Source: Minwuia sp.
GTDB lineage: Bacteria; Pseudomonadota; Alphaproteobacteria; Minwuiales; Minwuiaceae
DNA: 64,000 nt
Direction: 5' to 3'
Assembly: GCA_029210175.1 (NCBI GenBank)
Contig: JARGPL010000015.1
Span: 310,001-374,000, forward strand
Shown here: piece by piece, positions 40,019 to 52,885 of the stretch
Numbering within the stretch: position 1 is the stretch's first letter
Layout of the letters: every line of letters starts with the position of its first letter
Notes under the pieces: model-generated
What the model was told of the DNA's origin: nothing
Databases searched by the model: none
Seen by the model: the letters and a program-made list of their open reading frames with translations, nothing else
Program-made: the position numbers and the translations under genes

Positions 40019-41500
40019 ATGACTGACGAGACCGGAAATTCGGAGGGGGTGCTGGGATTCCTGACCCAGATTCTGCCGGACTGGGTATTGGTCATCGTCC
40101 TGATCGTTGTTGTCCTCGTCACTATGCTGTTGTTCTTCGAGCGCGTGAGGCGGTGGATCGCGGACATGGTCAGCGGTTGGCGCTGGGCGAGCAAGTTTGT
40201 TTCCAATCCAAGGCAAGCAATCGCCGAAGCCGCGAATCCCGCTGCGAAAGAACCCATGACGCCCGAGGTTCTGGCCCAGCTGAAACGCATTGAGGCGATG
40301 CTTGATCAACTGGAGGGTGGCCACCCCCCTGACCCAGAACAGCGCGAACGCCGGCATGAAGCCGCGCGAGATCTTGTCACCGATCCGGATCCGGATGCCC
40401 GGGCCGCTGTCGAGGAAATCACCAGCGAAGATAGTAACATCGACCATGCGGTTGAACGGCTTGAGAGAGAGGCACGTGCCTCTGAAAGCAGGGCATTGGC
40501 CGCAACAGCCGACGCCGCCGCGAAGTGGCGCCGCATCGGCGATCTGGTCGCGGGCTTCGACACCGCCACGGCACTGAATGCCTACGAACAGGCGTTTCGC
40601 CTGGACCCGGATGATTTCTGGACCATCGTGATGCTTGCTCGCGCACGACGTTTGGCCGGGAACCTTGAGGGCGCACTTGAACTGGTGCCGTGCATGGACA
40701 GCGCCGCCGCAACGGAACGGGACCGGTCAGTTGTTGGTAGTGAAACGGGTCTGCTTTTCCTGGAATCTGGCCAGTTTGAAGTTGCTCGCGCAGCCTATCA
40801 GCGGTCTCTGGAAATGGCTGAGGCGCTTGCGGCGTCGAACCCGGGGTCGGCGGCGGCGCAGCGTGACCTGTCCGTCAGTCTGGAACGGCTGGGTGATGTG
40901 GAGGTTCAGGCGGGGGACCTTGCTGCGGCGCGGCTGGCCTATGCGCGGTCTCTTGAGGTAATGGATGCGCTTGCTGCGACGAACCCGGGGTCGGCTGCGG
41001 CGCAGCGTGACCTGTCCGTCAGTCTGGAACGGCTGGGTGATGTGGAGGTTCAGGCGGGGGACCTTGCTGCGGCGCGGCGGGCCCATGCGCGGTCACTGGA
41101 GGTCAGGGAGGCGCTTGCGGCGTCGAACCCGGGGTCGGCGGCGGCGCAGCGTGACCTGTCGGTCAGTCTGAACAAGCTGGGCGATGTGGAGGTTCAGGCG
41201 GGGGACCTTGCTGCGGCGCGGCGGGCCCATGCGCGGTCACTGGAAATCGATGAGGCGCTTGCGGCGTCGAACCCGGGGTCGGCTGCGGCGCAGCGGGACC
41301 TGTCGGTCAGCCTGGAACGGCTGGGCGATTTGGCAGAGCGTAGCGGAGATCCTGGCGCTGCGGTTGCGCTGTACGAGCGGAGTTTGCCGATCGCCGACAT
41401 ACTGGCCAGAAGCAATCCTTCGCATCCGGGATTGCAACGGGATTATGAGATCACGCGATGGCGGCTGGATGACCTGAGGCGGAAGCTTGGGGATGAGTGA
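40019..41500 (+). CDS. Membrane-anchored TPR protein with tandem 48-residue repeats
   Basis: A 493-residue protein. A hydrophobic helix (WVLVIVLIVVVLVTMLLFF) near residues 22-40 anchors it. A long charged linker follows, then FDTATALNAYEQAFRLDPDD and four units of a 48-residue repeat containing NPGSAAAQRDLSVSLERLGD and VEVQAGDLAAARRAHARSLE. The repeat is a pair of TPR-like helices. The first three units are almost identical in DNA and protein, the last is diverged. Function is unknown; it resembles TPR proteins common in Rhodospirillales. A related protein is at 38336. Confidence 0.85.
   Translation: MTDETGNSEGVLGFLTQILPDWVLVIVLIVVVLVTMLLFFERVRRWIADMVSGWRWASKFVSNPRQAIAEAANPAAKEPMTPEVLAQLKRIEAMLDQLEGGHPPDPEQRERRHEAARDLVTDPDPDARAAVEEITSEDSNIDHAVERLEREARASESRALAATADAAAKWRRIGDLVAGFDTATALNAYEQAFRLDPDDFWTIVMLARARRLAGNLEGALELVPCMDSAAATERDRSVVGSETGLLFLESGQFEVARAAYQRSLEMAEALAASNPGSAAAQRDLSVSLERLGDVEVQAGDLAAARLAYARSLEVMDALAATNPGSAAAQRDLSVSLERLGDVEVQAGDLAAARRAHARSLEVREALAASNPGSAAAQRDLSVSLNKLGDVEVQAGDLAAARRAHARSLEIDEALAASNPGSAAAQRDLSVSLERLGDLAERSGDPGAAVALYERSLPIADILARSNPSHPGLQRDYEITRWRLDDLRRKLGDE
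40823..41398 (+). repeat. 144-bp tandem repeat inside the TPR gene
   Basis: Four copies with period exactly 144 bp, starting at 40823, 40967, 41111 and 41255. Copies one to three differ by only a few bases (for example CTGGAACGG versus CTGAACAAG near 41167); copy four decays after about 75 bases. The period equals 48 codons so the reading frame is kept whatever the copy number. High nucleotide identity points to recent expansion or gene conversion. Confidence 0.93.
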
Positions 41501-45263: not shown

Positions 45264-48200
45264 TCAGACCCTCCCGAAGCCACCACCGCCGGGGCTTTCG
45301 ATGATGATGGCGTCGCCGGGTTCCAGTTCGGCGATGGCCCAGCCAGGACGCTGTTCGGTGTCGCCATTGGCGCGGACGACGAAGTTGCGACCGACGGCCC
45401 CGTCTGCGCCCCCTTCCAGCCCGAATGGCGCGACCTTGCGGTGGCTGGACAGGAATGACGCGGTCATCTTCTCCAGGAACCTGATCCGACGCACCGTTCC
45501 GTCACCGCCCGAATGCGCGCCCTTGCCGCCGGACCCGGTGCGGACGTGAAAGTCCTCCAGAATCACCGGATAGCGGAATTCCAGCACCTCCGGGTCGGTG
45601 AGCCGGGTGTTGGTCATGTGGGTATGCACCGCGCTGGTTCCATCGAAGTCGGGTCCGGCCCCTGCCCCGCCGCAGATGGTCTCATAATACTGATGGCGGT
45701 CGTTGCCGAAGGTGAAGTTGTTCATCGTCCCCTGCGCCGCAGCCATCACACCAAGCGCACCGAAGAGGCAGTCCGTGATGCACTGGCTGGTCTCGACATT
45801 GCCCGCCACGACCGCCGCCGGATAGACCGGCCGCAGCATGGATTTCTGCGGGATGATCACGTTCAGCGGTTTCAGGCAGCCGCCGTTCAGCGGAATTTCC
45901 GAATCCACCAGGCAACGGAATACGTACAGCACGGCGGCATAGGCCACCGCCGTGGGCGCATTGTAGTTGGTCGGGTGGGTTTCGGACGTGCCCGTGAAGT
46001 CAATCGTGGCTGACCGGGCTTCGTGGTCGATACTCACCTTCACCTTGATGACCGAGCCATCGTCCATCGGATAGGTGAACGCGCCGTCATGCAGCACGTC
46101 GATGACCCGCCTGACGGATTCCTCGGCATTGTCCTGTACATGGCCCATGTAGGCCTTCACGACCGGCAGGCCGAAGTCCGTGACCATGCGGCGAAGTTCC
46201 CGCGCACCCTTCTCGCAGGCGGCGATCTGGGCAGCGAGGTCGGCCATGTTCTGGTGCGGATTGCGCGCCGGGTAGGTGCCGGAACTCAACAGGGCGATCG
46301 TTTCCTGTTCTAGCAATTTGCCACCATCGACCAGCAACACATTGTCCAGCAACACACCTTCTTCATCGACGGTGGTGGAATCAGGTGGCATGGAACCCGG
46401 CGTCTTGCCGCCGATATCGGCATGGTGACCACGGGCGGCGGTATAGAACAGCACCTCCGACCCGTCCTCGCTGTAGACCGGGGCGATGACGGTGACGTCG
46501 GGCAGATGCGTGCCGCCGTTGTAGGGCGCGTTCAGCATGTAGACGTCGCCGGGCTTCATGGTCGCCGCGTTTTCCCGCACCACGGTCTTGATGGATTCCG
46601 ACATGGAGCCCAGGTGCACCGGCATGTGCGGCGCATTGGCGATCAGTTCGCCGGCCGCATCGAAGACCGCGCAGGAGAAGTCCAGCCGTTCCTTGATATT
46701 GACCGAATAGGCCGTGCGTTCCAGCACCACGCCCATCTGCTCGGCGATGTTCATGAACAGGTTGTTGAAGATCTCCATCATCACCGGATCAGCCTCGGTG
46801 CCGATGGCGCGGCTGTCGCGGCGGGCCTCCACCCGGCGCACGACCATGTGACGCTTGGCGGTCAGTTCGGCCTGCCAGCCGGGTTCCACGACGGTCGTTG
46901 ATGTCGCCTCGCGAATGATGGCCGGGCCGTTCACGGTGGCACCGGGCTGCATGGTATCGCGGTCATAGACGTTGGTGCTGCACCGCTCCGCATCCATCCA
47001 GGATTCGACGGTCGCCACCGACTCCGGCGTATTGGCCGCGCCGTCGGTCGCCGGATCGTCGATCACGTCACCGGGGGCCATGGCTTCCACGGTCGCAGCC
47101 TCGACAATGATGGTCTTTTCCGGGCTGGTGAAGCCGAACTGCTGCTGATGCGCGGTCTCGAACGCCTGCTGTGTCTGCTCGAGATTGGTGAAGTCGATGG
47201 CCAGAGCGGTATCGGACCCGTCGTAGCGGACAAGTGCCCCATGCTTCATCTGGATCACGTCAGCATCGATTTCCTGTGCCAGCAGTTCCTTTTCCGCCTC
47301 GGCGCCGAGTTCGGCATGGATACGGCTGACTTCAGCCACACCATCCGCATCCAATGGCAATTCCACGGCCCGTTCGCGCAGCGCGCGGGTGTCGGCCAGG
47401 CCCATGCCATAGGCAGACAGGACACCGGCGTGCGGATGCAGGAACACGGTCTCCACCCCCAGCTTGTCAGCAACCAGACAGGCATGCTGCCCCCCTGCCC
47501 CGCCAAAGCAGTTCAGCACGTACCTGGACACGTCGTAGCCGCGCTGGATGGAGATCTTCTTGATCGCATTGGCCATGTTCTCGACCGCGATCTCCAGGAA
47601 CCCGGCCGCCACTTCTTCCGGTGTGCGCATGTCGCCGGTTTCACGGGCAATCCGGTCGGTCAGAACCGCAAACTTCTCCCGCACCGCATCCACGTCCAGC
47701 GGTGCATCCCCATCCGGTCCGAAGACATGGGGAAAATGTTCCGGCTGCAGCTTGCCAAGCATGACGTTGCAATCGGTAACTGCCAGCTGCCCGCCCTTGC
47801 GGTAGCAGGCCGGACCGGGGTTTGCCCCCGCTGAGTCAGGCCCCACCTGATAGCGCCCATCCTCGAAATGCAGGATCGAACCTCCACCGGCGGCAACCGT
47901 GTGGATCAGCATCATCGGCGCCCGCATGCGCACCCCCGCAACCTCGGTCTCGAAAGCCCGCTCGAACGTGCCATCATAATGGGAAACGTCGGTGGACGTG
48001 CCGCCCATGTCGAAACCGATGACCTTGTCGAAGCCAGCCATCTCGGCCGTGCGCACCATGCCGACCACGCCGCCAGCCGGGCCGGACAGGATTGCATCCT
48101 TGCCCTGGAACAGGCGCGCGTCGGTCAGGCCGCCATTCGACTGCATGAACATCAGGCGCACATCGCCCAGTTCCTGCGACACCTGATCAACGTATCGTCG

Positions 48201-48848
48201 CAGGATCGGTGACAGATAGGCGTCGACCACGGTGGTGTCGCCACGGCTGACGATCTTCATCAGCGGACTGGTTTCGTGGCTGGTGGACACCTGCGTGAAG
48301 CCGATTTCCCGCGCCAGCATGGCCACGGCCTTTTCGTGATCGGAAAAGCGATAGCCATGCATGAAGACAATCGCCGCGGCGCGGATTCCATCGTCGAATG
48401 CGGCCTGCAGTCCTTCGCGCGCGACATCCAGGTCCAGCGGCTCTAGCTCGGCACCGGCAGCATCGACCCGACCCGGCACCTCGATCACACCGTCGTAGAG
48501 CATCTCGGGCAGTTCGATCTTCAGGGCGAACAGGTCCGGGCGGTTCTGATATCCGATCCGCAGCACATCGCGGAATCCGCGATTGGTCACGAACAGGCAC
48601 CGGTCGCCCTTGCGTTCCAGCAAGGCATTGGTGGCAACCGTCGTGCCCATCTTCACCGCATCGATCTGATCCGACGGGATCGGGTCACCAGGTTTCAGAC
48701 CCAGCAGGTCGCGAATGCCCTGCACGGCGGCGTCACGATACCGTTCCGGGTTTTCCGACAGCACCTTGTGCGTCACCACCGCCCCATCGGGACGCCGCCC
48801 GACGACATCTGTGAAGGTCCCGCCACGATCTACCCAGAACTGCCACAT
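45264..48848 (-). CDS. 5-oxoprolinase/hydantoinase, HyuA-HyuB fusion
   Basis: A 1194-residue ATP-dependent hydrolase. The N-terminus has the actin-fold Hydant_A domains: [19 protein letters not shown] (phosphate loop), then [16 protein letters not shown] and [15 protein letters not shown]. From about residue 700 the HyuB part follows ([40 protein letters not shown] and GGGGFG at the end). The fusion and length match OplaH-type 5-oxoprolinase, which opens 5-oxoproline to glutamate with ATP, although hydantoinases and acetone carboxylases share the domains. It is the last gene of the LysR-DUF1445-TRAP locus and uses GAGACGA near its start. Confidence 0.92.
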
Positions 48849-48907
48849 GGATCTCGTCTCCTTCGTTGTCGCGCGCTTGGTACTTGATGAACTCTCGGTG
48901 CCGGGAA

Positions 48908-50191
48908 TCAGTAGAACAGACCGGGCAGCCAGAGAGCGATCTCGGGAAAGATCAGCAGCATTGCAATCATTGCAAACATGGTCAGGACAAAAGGCGCTGA
49001 ACCGATCATGACATCGGAAAGCTGTCCCTTTTCGCGTACCCCCTGCACCACATACAGGTTGATGCCGATGGGTGGCGTGATCAGCGCCGTCTCCAGCAGC
49101 ACCATCAGCAGGATGCCGAACCAGACCGGGTCAAACCCCAGCGCCACCACGATGGGTGTGATCAGCGGGGCCGTGGTCAGCAGCATCGACAGGGTTTCCA
49201 TGAAGCAGCCGATGACGACCAGCACGGCGATCAGCATCAGCATGGTCTGCATCGGCGTCAGCCCCAGGCCGGTGACGAAATCCGCCAGCGCCTGGGTCAG
49301 GCCGATGATCGACAGCACGAAGTTCAGGAACACGGCAGCAAAGATGATCAGCATGATCATTGACGTCGTGCGCATCGTCCCCTCGAGCGCGCTTCTGAGC
49401 ATCCGCAGGGTCAGGGTGCCGTTCGATGCCGACAGGATCAGCGCCGCGACGACACCAAGGGATGCGGCTTCGGTCGGCGTGGCGAGGCCGGTGTAGATCG
49501 ATCCCACAACCACGATGAAGATACCGATGGGCGGCAGCAGCGACGGCAGGGCGGCAATGCGCTCCGCCCACGTGACACTGATCTTCTCCCCACCCCAGGA
49601 ACGGCGATAGAGGCAGAGGACCACGACCGTCAGCATGAACAGCGCTGCCAGCATGAACCCGGGGATGAAGCCCGCAAGATACAGCTCCGGCACCGACGTG
49701 TCTGTCAGCAGGCCATAGAGGATCAGGTTGATCGATGGCGGGATCAGGATGCCGAGGGTGCCCCCGGCGGCAATGGTGCCGAGAAACAGGCGTTCGTTGT
49801 ACCCGCGTTTCTCGATCTGCGGGATGGCGACAGTGCCGATGGTCGCTGCCGTGGCAACCGACGACCCGGAAGTCGCGGCAAACAGCGCACACGAGCCGGT
49901 GTTGGCATGCATCAGACCACCGGGCAACCAGCCAAGCCACTTCACGATGCCTTCGTACATCCGCTCCGCAATGCCGGACCGCAGCAGGATTTCCCCCAGC
50001 AGCACGAACATCGGAATGGCGACCAGGATGAAGTCGGTGCCGGTCTGCCAGACCATGTCACCCAGCGCGCGATGCAGCGGCATCGGGCTGTCCATGTACT
50101 GCAGTGACAGGCCGAGCCAGCCAAGGGCCGCGGCAACGGGTACCGCAAGCGCGATCAGTCCAAGCAGGATAAGCAGGGTTTTTGTAAGCAT
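48908..50191 (-). CDS. dctM: TRAP transporter large permease subunit
   Basis: A 427-residue, about twelve-helix DctM/YiaN protein: [40 protein letters not shown] and [16 protein letters not shown] are typical. The start overlaps the dctQ stop at 50191, so the two permease subunits are coupled. It moves solute with a sodium or proton gradient, fed by the DctP protein. Distinct from, and intact compared with, the remnant at 43762. Follows 59 bases before the oxoprolinase start. Confidence 0.96.
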
Positions 50192-50751
50192 CAGACTTTC
50201 TCGTCTTCTATCTGCTCGTCCAGGCTCTTCATGCCGATAAGACGGTCAGCGCTGGCACTGTCGCCGCGCAGGACGCTGACGAGTGCGGCAAGAAAAAGCA
50301 GGCAACCGCAGAGGACAAAGAACAGCCAACCGGCCAGCCAGGGTACTTGCGGCCAGGCCAACGGCGTCCGCATCGGCGTGATGGAACGGGAACCGTGGTT
50401 CAATGTGTCGGCCACCATGTCCCAGCCCATCGAGGCGATGACAGCTGCAAAACCGGTCAGCAGGGCCAGACCGAAGAAGTTCAGGGCGATCTTCGCCGGT
50501 CGCGGCAGGATCATGAAAAGGGCATCGACGCGAATGTGTGCGCGCTCGAACAGCGCGTAGGCCAGGCCCAATGTGGTGGCTACGCCGAACGCGTATCCGG
50601 AAACCTCGTCTGCACCGCCAAGGCTGATGTTCGCGAACTTGCGAAGGAAAATCTCCAGCGTGACCAGCAGGGCGGAAAGCAGGATCATGCCTCCGCCAAT
50701 CCAGACAAGCAGGCGCGAAAGGCGGTGGGTAGCGTCGACCAGGCGCTGCAT
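50191..50751 (-). CDS. dctQ: TRAP transporter small permease subunit
   Basis: A 186-residue four-helix DctQ protein (LLVWIGGGMILLSALLVTLE; GADEVSGYAFGVATTLGLAY; ALFERAHIRVDALF). ATG 50751 is preferred because GGGGGAC lies eight bases before it; the ORF to 50823 carries 24 odd residues and runs toward the repeat array. Together with DctM it forms the membrane part of the TRAP system. A 27-bp repeat array lies between its start and the dctP stop. Confidence 0.95.
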   Translation of the reverse strand: MQRLVDATHRLSRLLVWIGGGMILLSALLVTLEIFLRKFANISLGGADEVSGYAFGVATTLGLAYALFERAHIRVDALFMILPRPAKIALNFFGLALLTGFAAVIASMGWDMVADTLNHGSRSITPMRTPLAWPQVPWLAGWLFFVLCGCLLFLAALVSVLRGDSASADRLIGMKSLDEQIEDEKV

Positions 50752-50852
50752 GACACGTCCCCCAGAATTGTTTTGGATGAAGTGCCCGGCCACCCCTTCA
50801 GGCGAAAGGATGGCCGGACCCATTCTCAGCCGGCAATTACCGTGCTGTTCGT

Positions 50853-51032
50853 CTCAGTCGGCTTACGCCGAACTGGTTGCTCAGTTGGCTTTCGCCGAAC
50901 TGGTTGCTCAGTTGGCTTTCGCCGAACTGGTTGCTCAGTTGGCCTTCGCCGAACTGGTTGCTCAGTTGGCTTTCGCCGAACTGGTTGCTCAGTTGGCTTT
51001 CGCCGAACTGGTTGCTCAGTTGGCTTTCGCCG
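50853..51032. repeat. 27-bp tandem repeat array between dctP and dctQ
   Basis: About 6.6 copies of a 27-bp unit start at 50853, 50880, 50907, 50934, 50961, 50988 and 51015; the first is slightly diverged and the others are nearly identical. The unit is CTCAGTTGGCTTTCGCC plus GAACTGGTTG. The dctP stop codon (51016-51018, TGA on the minus strand) lies inside the copy at 51015, so the array reiterates the last codons and stop of dctP. In mRNA sense each unit offers GGC-GAAA-GCC and AACTG-N6-CAGTT stems. There are no spacers, so it is not a CRISPR. Confidence 0.92.
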
Positions 51033-52053
51033 TCAGGCCCAACAGGCTGCCGACGGTGTCATTCCAGTTGGACGCGCACTCTGCGCCGCAACGCTCTGCC
51101 CAGCGGGCCAGGACCACTTCATTGGCAATCTTGTCACGCAGGGCAATGTCCGAAGCGGACGGCTTGACCAGCACCATCGCACCAGGCTCACCGATATCGC
51201 ACTTGCCACCGGTGATGCAGCTGACAGCAATCGTGTCTTCCGCAGCCGTGTTCGCCCACATCTCATCGGTCAGCGTCGCGATCTCCTTGGTCAGCAGGGC
51301 CTGCTGGTCTGCGGACATGGAGTTCCACTTGTTCATGTTCATCGCACCGAAGGCAAGGCCCCAGCCAACGCGCAGGGTAAAGGCATGGGTGGCAACCTGG
51401 TGCCACTTGGCCTGGTACGCAGCCATGGTGCCGGTGATGCCGCAGTCGACAACGCCCTTTTCCAGCGCCGGAATGACTTCCGCGAACGGAACGGTGACGG
51501 AAGTGCCGCCTACGCCCTCGACAAAATCACCAAGCGTGGTGGCATAGACGCGGATCTTCTTGCCCTTCAGATCGGCAATGCTGTTGACCTCCGCATTGCA
51601 CCACAGCATCTGGCTGGGGAACGGGTAGAGCATCATCAGCTTGGCGTTGTAGTACTTGGCAAATGCCGCTTCCAGGGTCGGAAAATAGGCATCCGCCACT
51701 TTCCGCTGGGTCTCGATGTCCTGGGTCACCGATGACAGGTCACCACCTTCGAAAACCGCATTCTCGGCAGCGACATAGCCCGGCAGGCCAAAGGCGAAAT
51801 CGAACACGCCGTTCTTCACCAGACGCATGATCTCGAAGCCCTTCAGACCCAATTCGGTCTGCGGCTTGATATCGCCGATGATGGTGCCGTTCGACACCTT
51901 GGCAATCCGTTCATTCCAGAACGGGCCTTCGTGCTGCTTGTAGTTGGTCAAGCCACCCCAGGTTCCGACACCCTTTACCACAACGGGGCCTTCGGCCAGC
52001 GCGGCGGTCGCTGTCACTGCCAGAGCGGCAGCAATCATTGCTATTTTTTTCAT
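51016..52053 (-). CDS. dctP: TRAP transporter solute-binding protein
   Basis: A 345-residue periplasmic DctP-family protein with signal peptide MKKIAMIAAALAVTATAALA. Family segments include NGTIIGDIKPQTELGLKGFE and LKGKKIRVYATTLGDFVEGV, the latter containing the conserved arginine region that binds a carboxylate. Substrate is therefore probably an organic acid; the operon suggests glutamate or oxoproline-like molecules. The stop falls within the 27-bp repeat array. The operon runs dctP-dctQ-dctM on the minus strand. Confidence 0.95.
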   Translation of the reverse strand: MKKIAMIAAALAVTATAALAEGPVVVKGVGTWGGLTNYKQHEGPFWNERIAKVSNGTIIGDIKPQTELGLKGFEIMRLVKNGVFDFAFGLPGYVAAENAVFEGGDLSSVTQDIETQRKVADAYFPTLEAAFAKYYNAKLMMLYPFPSQMLWCNAEVNSIADLKGKKIRVYATTLGDFVEGVGGTSVTVPFAEVIPALEKGVVDCGITGTMAAYQAKWHQVATHAFTLRVGWGLAFGAMNMNKWNSMSADQQALLTKEIATLTDEMWANTAAEDTIAVSCITGGKCDIGEPGAMVLVKPSASDIALRDKIANEVVLARWAERCGAECASNWNDTVGSLLGLTAKAN

Positions 52054-52078
52054 ATTGTTAGCTTCCCTGTTTGAGATT

Positions 52079-52885
52079 CTAGTTGATTGTAGCGTTCTTC
52101 CTGTCGTCGATATCCGCGATCAGCATCCGGCCCGGTGTATGGGTGATGCAGATCGGGGGTCGTGCGTTGGTCAGGGCGTTCTGCGGTGTGACACCGCACG
52201 CCCAGAAGACGGGTACGTCGGCAGGGCCGCACGGCGGGTCACCCCAATCCGGCGCCTCGATGTTGCTGATCCCTATTGCTGCCGGGTCACCCACATGGAT
52301 GGGCGCGCCATGCGCCCAGGTGAAGGCGGAGGTGATCTCTGTCACCCGCGCCACCTGATCCGGCGCAACATAGCGCATGGACACCACTATGCCGCCGCTG
52401 AACGGGCCGACCGGCATGGTTTCGATGTTGGTCCGGTACATGGGGACGGTGCGGTCGGCGGCGATGTGGTGCATCGGAATGCCCGCCTCCAGCAACGCCT
52501 GCTCGAACGTGAAGGAACACCCCAGGGCAAAGCCCACCAGATCATCGCGCCAGTATTCGGTGATATCGGCAACCGTTTCCGCCAGAACCCCATCGCGATA
52601 GATGTTGTAGGTCGGCACATCGGTGCGCAGGTCGATGTCGCCCAGACCAGGCATCATCGGGCTGCCCGGCTCCGTCATGCCGACCAATGGACACGGACGG
52701 GGGTTGAGACGGCAGAATTGTTCGAAGTCTGCGGCCATTGATTGCGGCAGGATCGCCAGATTGGTCTGCAACCGCCCGGGCGCCAGTCCAGCCGTGTGCC
52801 CCTGATAGCCGCCGGCGCGGATCACCGCGCGTACATCGACAATATCGCGGGTCTTCAATATCTCGAATGAGGTGGCGTCCGGCAT
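52079..52885 (-). CDS. DUF1445 family protein (D-glutamate cyclase / putative hydro-lyase)
   Basis: A 268-residue protein of normal length for the DUF1445/UPF0317 family. It shows the family's GLAPGRLQTNLAILPQ, CPLVGMTEPGSPMMPGLGDI and DITEYWRDDLVGFALGCSFT, and ends with ARPPICITHTPGRMLIADID. Members include the D-glutamate cyclase domain that turns D-glutamate into 5-oxo-D-proline; the older label is hydro-lyase. A 5-oxoprolinase in the same locus makes the cyclase reading attractive, but this is inferred. It starts 25 bases upstream of dctP. Confidence 0.93.
   Translation of the reverse strand: MPDATSFEILKTRDIVDVRAVIRAGGYQGHTAGLAPGRLQTNLAILPQSMAADFEQFCRLNPRPCPLVGMTEPGSPMMPGLGDIDLRTDVPTYNIYRDGVLAETVADITEYWRDDLVGFALGCSFTFEQALLEAGIPMHHIAADRTVPMYRTNIETMPVGPFSGGIVVSMRYVAPDQVARVTEITSAFTWAHGAPIHVGDPAAIGISNIEAPDWGDPPCGPADVPVFWACGVTPQNALTNARPPICITHTPGRMLIADIDDRKNATIN

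Follow-up and report, generated by a model that had tools for sequence, protein, structure and literature searches.

Background

In Escherichia coli, a structure between malE and malF protects the malE message; in other ABC operons, the stabilised gene is also the binding-protein gene (PMC5927463). In the ABC importers of cellulolytic Clostridia, leaky internal terminators follow the binding-protein genes, many of them are U-poor, and the folding energies of the stem-loops range from -10 to -38 kcal/mol (PMC9045158). In Rhodobacter capsulatus, the message of the puf operon is protected from RNase cleavage by hairpins, as cited in PMC7509114. Bacterial minisatellites (VNTRs), for their part, are short near-identical tandem units that occupy one locus, include variant copies and are absent from relatives.

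Here, we describe the gap between dctP and dctQ in a TRAP transporter operon of Minwuia sp., located in a stretch of 64,000 nucleotides that was analysed as a whole (hereafter, the window). As in malE-malF, a hairpin lies between a 5' substrate-binding-protein gene and the permease genes (PMC5927463), but the transporter is of the TRAP and not the ABC type, the hairpin is a predicted one, and a lineage-specific array adjoins it; the repeat unit also differs from the protective structures of E. coli in not being a dispersed REP-type element. With the clostridial terminators, the locus shares a stem-loop that directly follows the gene of the binding protein and a frequent paucity of U residues, whereas those stem-loops belong to Firmicutes ABC operons in which termination was measured, and the hairpins considered here are predicted and mostly have no T-rich tail. 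With the puf operon, the likeness consists of multiple hairpins inside an alphaproteobacterial operon and the difference of the genes involved. The array has all of the minisatellite features listed above and differs in that the gap of a relative still reveals the two-copy state from which it was founded.

Organization of the TRAP operon

On the minus strand, the genes are arranged in the order LysR gene, D-glutamate cyclase, dctP, dctQ, dctM and hydantoinase/oxoprolinase. The transporter genes are as follows:

51016..52053, minus strand: dctP, TRAP-transporter solute-binding protein (ORF; Pfam DctP PF03480, E=4e-22)
50191..50751, minus strand: dctQ, TRAP small permease subunit (Pfam DctQ PF04290, E=7.5e-22)
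48908..50191, minus strand: dctM, TRAP large permease subunit (Pfam DctM PF06808, E=1.5e-91)

The dctP gene ends with the stop codon TGA at 51018-51016, and the C-terminus of the protein reads ...LTAKAN*. The start of dctQ is most likely the ATG at 50751-50749, since this start is conserved in L038, a same-genus relative with 95% DctP identity; when this start is taken, the dctP-dctQ gap is 264 nt long. It contains the following elements:

50853..51032, minus strand: 27-bp tandem array, unit GGCGAAAGCCAACTGAGCAACCAGTTC (TRF; single locus in its own genome)
50882..51010, minus strand: five near-identical hairpins CAGUUCGGCGAAAGCCAACUG with 6-nt spacers AGCAAC (folds)
50855..50875, minus strand: last, variant array hairpin with a GUAA loop (folds; alignment with L038)
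50827..50847, minus strand: degenerate weak small hairpin CAGCACGGTAATTGCCGGCTG (fold; counterpart hairpin in L038)
50784..50819, minus strand: strong intercistronic hairpin of 16 bp, immediately before dctQ (-29.9 kcal/mol; counterpart of the gap hairpin of orthologues)

Structure of the 27-bp array

The original prediction, made from the sequence of the window, had placed a 27-bp array of seven copies, six of them almost identical, in the dctP-dctQ gap. TRF confirmed it at 50853-51032 with a period of 27, 6.7 copies, 97% matches, 0 indels and a score of 339. The array starts within the final dctP codons: copy 1 is partial (51015-51032) and coincides with the dctP 3' end, and six full copies then follow. 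Four of these are identical, one (50934-50960) has a single change that converts the GAAA loop to GAAG, and one (50853-50879) has two changes and a GUAA loop. The nine-codon unit that reiterates the dctP end and its TGA, also part of the original prediction, is borne out by the in-frame reading, in which the dctP frame continues through the array as AKAN-stop-ATSSAKAN-stop-ATSSAKAN-stop..., the final dctP residues and TGA recurring in each unit; the last copy carries an additional TAA.

As all copies place TGA in the dctP frame, the repeats might be taken for a reserve of stop codons that makes dctP termination fail-safe. We give this idea next to no credence, since a single extra stop would be enough, the relatives are without the array, and the in-frame stops simply result from the length of the unit, nine codons of which the stop is one.

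Another question is whether the assembled copy number could be an artefact of draft sequencing, because the draft genome comprises 43 contigs and short tandem arrays are prone to miscounts. This appears very improbable, as the array is just 180 bp long and has distinct variant copies both in its middle and at its end. The array itself is very probably present, and its exact copy number alone is uncertain.

Each full unit is predicted to fold into one bulged hairpin, CAGUU-C-GGC-GAAA-GCC-AACUG, with an energy of -10.1 kcal/mol compared with -3.2 +/- 1.8 kcal/mol in dinucleotide shuffles, 0.2% of which equal it. The pairing and the GAAA tetraloop that had been predicted were thus recovered, although the two small stems envisaged are not separate but parts of this one hairpin. 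The CAGUUCGGCGAAAGCCAACUG hairpins lie at 51010-50990, 50983-50963, 50956-50936, 50929-50909 and 50902-50882. Two further hairpins downstream, the weak one at 50827-50847 and the strong one at 50784-50819, had not been mentioned in the original prediction. A scan against Rfam revealed no family above the gathering threshold and only chance matches; the best, to mir-5681, reached 27.3 bits where the gathering score is 88 and reflects a long stem matched by chance.

Read as DNA, the arms of the unit (CAGTT-N11-AACTG) also fit the T-N11-A pattern of LysR-type operators; this motif is present in every full copy, well above the chance level of the window, and a LysR gene lies upstream. That the array is a row of such operators is nevertheless extremely improbable, as the motif is absent from the region upstream of the operon, and the array is located within the operon. 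Moreover, the corresponding arms in L038 are 15 nt apart, not 11, with the inner GGC/GCC pairing kept, and pairing in RNA fits better. This reading was dropped on the grounds of the arm spacing in L038 and the position of the array.

Distribution and origin of the array

Searches of its own genome with up to three mismatches allowed (<=3) revealed no copy of the unit outside the array, and a dispersed palindromic repeat of the REP/BIME type is ruled out, since the unit occurs at one locus only. No copy was found in viral contigs and plasmids. The array is not present in two same-genus genomes with orthologous dctP (95% and 87% DctP identity), the genus sample comprising three dctP orthologues only, with one genome per species, and no 27-bp array was found in the scanned dctP-dctQ gaps of the relatives. 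The head-to-tail arrangement of near-identical units, together with their confinement to a single locus and a single lineage, as judged from its own genome and the gaps of relatives, agrees with a minisatellite (VNTR).

When five units are removed, the gap measures 129 nt and can be aligned over its full length with that of L038 (133 nt), both small hairpins and the strong one being part of the alignment. In the first small hairpin, both members of one arm pair differ between the two genomes (U-A here, A-U in L038). In the collapsed sequence, a distance of 27 bp, equal to the unit length, separates GGCGAAAGCCAACTGAG at the end of dctP from GGCGTAAGCCGACTGAG, the founder hairpin, which to judge from the alignment is probably the variant array hairpin at 50855..50875.

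The ancestral gap may therefore be pictured as that of L038, in which the end of dctP is followed by a pair of small hairpins, a strong one and finally dctQ. In the present lineage, GGCGAAAGCCAACTGAG and GGCGTAAGCCGACTGAG would have been similar enough, at a distance of 27 bp, to mispair, and replication slippage would then have added five 27-bp units. The array thus probably arose when the 3' end of dctP slipped against the similar hairpin 27 bp further on, and it would capture the birth of a minisatellite in which a gene end and a hairpin resembling it supply the mispairing; apart from an origin that is unusually easy to read, it is an ordinary minisatellite.

Since the unit consists of whole codons, the stop among them, no copy number would do harm. 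Because DctP is left intact whatever the number of nine-codon units with TGA, the array could persist, and arrays that repeat a stop codon are expected to survive since the protein is unchanged. An independent case was found in L011 (positions ~2500-2560), downstream of a distant dctP (39% identity), where a tandem 13-bp unit, GTATGACTGACCG, present in 3.8 copies, repeats the stop codon, which indicates that stop-codon duplications occur and are tolerated.

Conservation of the strong hairpin before dctQ

Gaps were taken from 57 orthologues with an adjacent dctQ (59-95% DctP identity), giving 58 sequences with the window. The best gap hairpin had an energy of -14 kcal/mol or stronger in all 57 orthologues, with a median of about -21 kcal/mol. 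In these orthologues (n=57), it starts a median of 13 nt past the dctP stop and ends a median of 26 nt before dctQ, the dctQ starts in relatives and in own-genome paralogues having been set by rule, so that a few may be off. The mean folding z-score of the orthologue gaps was -2.96, with values < -2 in 46 of the 57. An uninterrupted helix of at least 8 bp was found in 98% of the gaps versus 27% of shuffles, and its arms have diverged, 52 being distinct among the 58 gap sequences. The hairpin that separates the binding-protein gene from the permease genes is therefore both stable and conserved beyond chance, and in both respects it corresponds to the malE-malF type.

The kept position and the pairing in diverged sequence imply covariation at the strong hairpin, as an argument from sequence comparison and not as a formal score. 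RNAalifold, applied to 27 Roseobacter-group gaps aligned by sequence, gave no consensus structure, because the diverged arms misalign; per-sequence helix statistics were used instead.

At loci without this dctQ after dctP (mostly of the Oceanospirillaceae type), the longest helices downstream of the dctP stop usually measured 7-9 bp and varied in position, and a few were strong and resembled terminators. Since the hairpin is kept where the dctQ junction exists and is inconsistent where it does not, it is tied to the junction of the binding-protein and permease genes. This genome has further TRAP operons, of which L116, L117, L119, L122, L123 and L125 carry a strong hairpin in the dctP-dctQ gap, and the gaps of L120 and L121 are probably very short. 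Nearly all TRAP operons of this type, and most of those in this genome, thus retain a hairpin between dctP and dctQ.

In five relatives (L068, L086, L083, L080 and L047), the dctP-dctQ gap contains two or more different hairpins. The possession of several gap hairpins is therefore not unique to the species studied, whereas identical tandem units are. The R. capsulatus puf hairpins are not known to be arranged as identical tandem units either.

Possible roles of the hairpin and the array

The original prediction also proposed an mRNA-stability element between dctP and dctQ. The place is well chosen, given the hairpins of 57/57 orthologues and the precedents in ABC operons (PMC5927463, PMC9045158), but the array is probably not the element: it is confined to the species among the genomes compared and its units are weak, and what is conserved is the strong hairpin that adjoins dctQ. 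In the reading that we consider likely, although by a margin that leaves room for others, the array is a young lineage-specific minisatellite, and the strong hairpin is the working element. The array would then be a neutral bystander whose weak hairpins have little or at most a modest effect, because they are far weaker than the strong hairpin (about -10 vs -30 kcal/mol) and are missing in all relatives.

The mechanism might begin with endonuclease cleavage in dctQM or partial termination at the strong hairpin, which would then shield the 3' end of the dctP mRNA; by analogy with malE-malF, the outcome would be DctP in excess of DctQM. The strong hairpin thus probably makes the cell produce more binding protein than membrane pump, and its retention across TRAP operons suggests that the amount of binding protein relative to permease may be set in these systems in the same way as in ABC systems. 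In the open literature, beyond which most subscription papers lie, we found no paper stating such ratio-setting in TRAP systems.

It is possible, if rather doubtful, that the strong hairpin is a leaky intrinsic terminator and not an RNase barrier, yielding more dctP than dctQM transcript. This explanation is compatible with the minisatellite origin of the array, as it concerns the hairpin and not the array, and it can draw on the U-poor internal terminators found after the binding-protein genes of clostridial ABC operons (PMC9045158) and on the T-rich tail that follows 5 of the 58 gap hairpins. However, the other 53, including that of the window, have no such tail; the window hairpin is followed by no T run and therefore does not have the form of an intrinsic terminator, a GC-rich stem with a U-tract, and a scan for promoters and terminators found nothing in the dctP-dctQ gap. 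With a T-rich tail in so few cases, protection from RNases seems somewhat more likely than termination by analogy with the systems described, though both fit.

A different proposal concerns the array, which might be a selected, copy-number-tunable RNA barrier after dctP that adds to the strong hairpin and slows 3'-5' exonucleases or the access of endonucleases, raising DctP relative to DctQM. Some observations run in this direction and against the bystander reading: every full copy folds well, the variant last copy is still paired and closed by a GNRA loop, which selection for a hairpin would also predict, and the complete gap region folds with z = -5.9 to -6.4. In addition, a ribosome at the dctP stop would hide the first hairpin, and extra copies could then matter. 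The founder small hairpin, kept in L038 with a two-sided change, may likewise mean that small hairpins matter here. We nevertheless regard a selected barrier as unlikely, since the array is in none of the relatives examined, and each of its hairpins contributes only ~-10 kcal/mol with a hairpin of -30 kcal/mol downstream; furthermore, selection is not readable from copies so alike, and slippage accounts for the sequence without selection. Quite improbable as well is that the array acts as a rheostat, in which slippage would alter the number of hairpins after dctP and heritably tune the ratio of binding protein to permease while leaving both proteins untouched.

Other features of the window

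The TRAP genes are grouped with the D-glutamate cyclase gene and a hydantoinase/oxoprolinase-type gene in the interval 45264-52885, and the same neighbours are common in relatives, with the cyclase at 58 of 78 loci and the oxoprolinase at 41 of 78 (flank <=3 kb). Judging from these neighbour genes, the substrate of the transporter may be 5-oxoproline or D-glutamate instead of a C4-dicarboxylate. Elsewhere in the window, at 40820-41333, a repeat with a 144-bp period, 3.6 copies, 91% matches and a 72-bp sub-period was found, which is possibly part of a repeat-protein gene.
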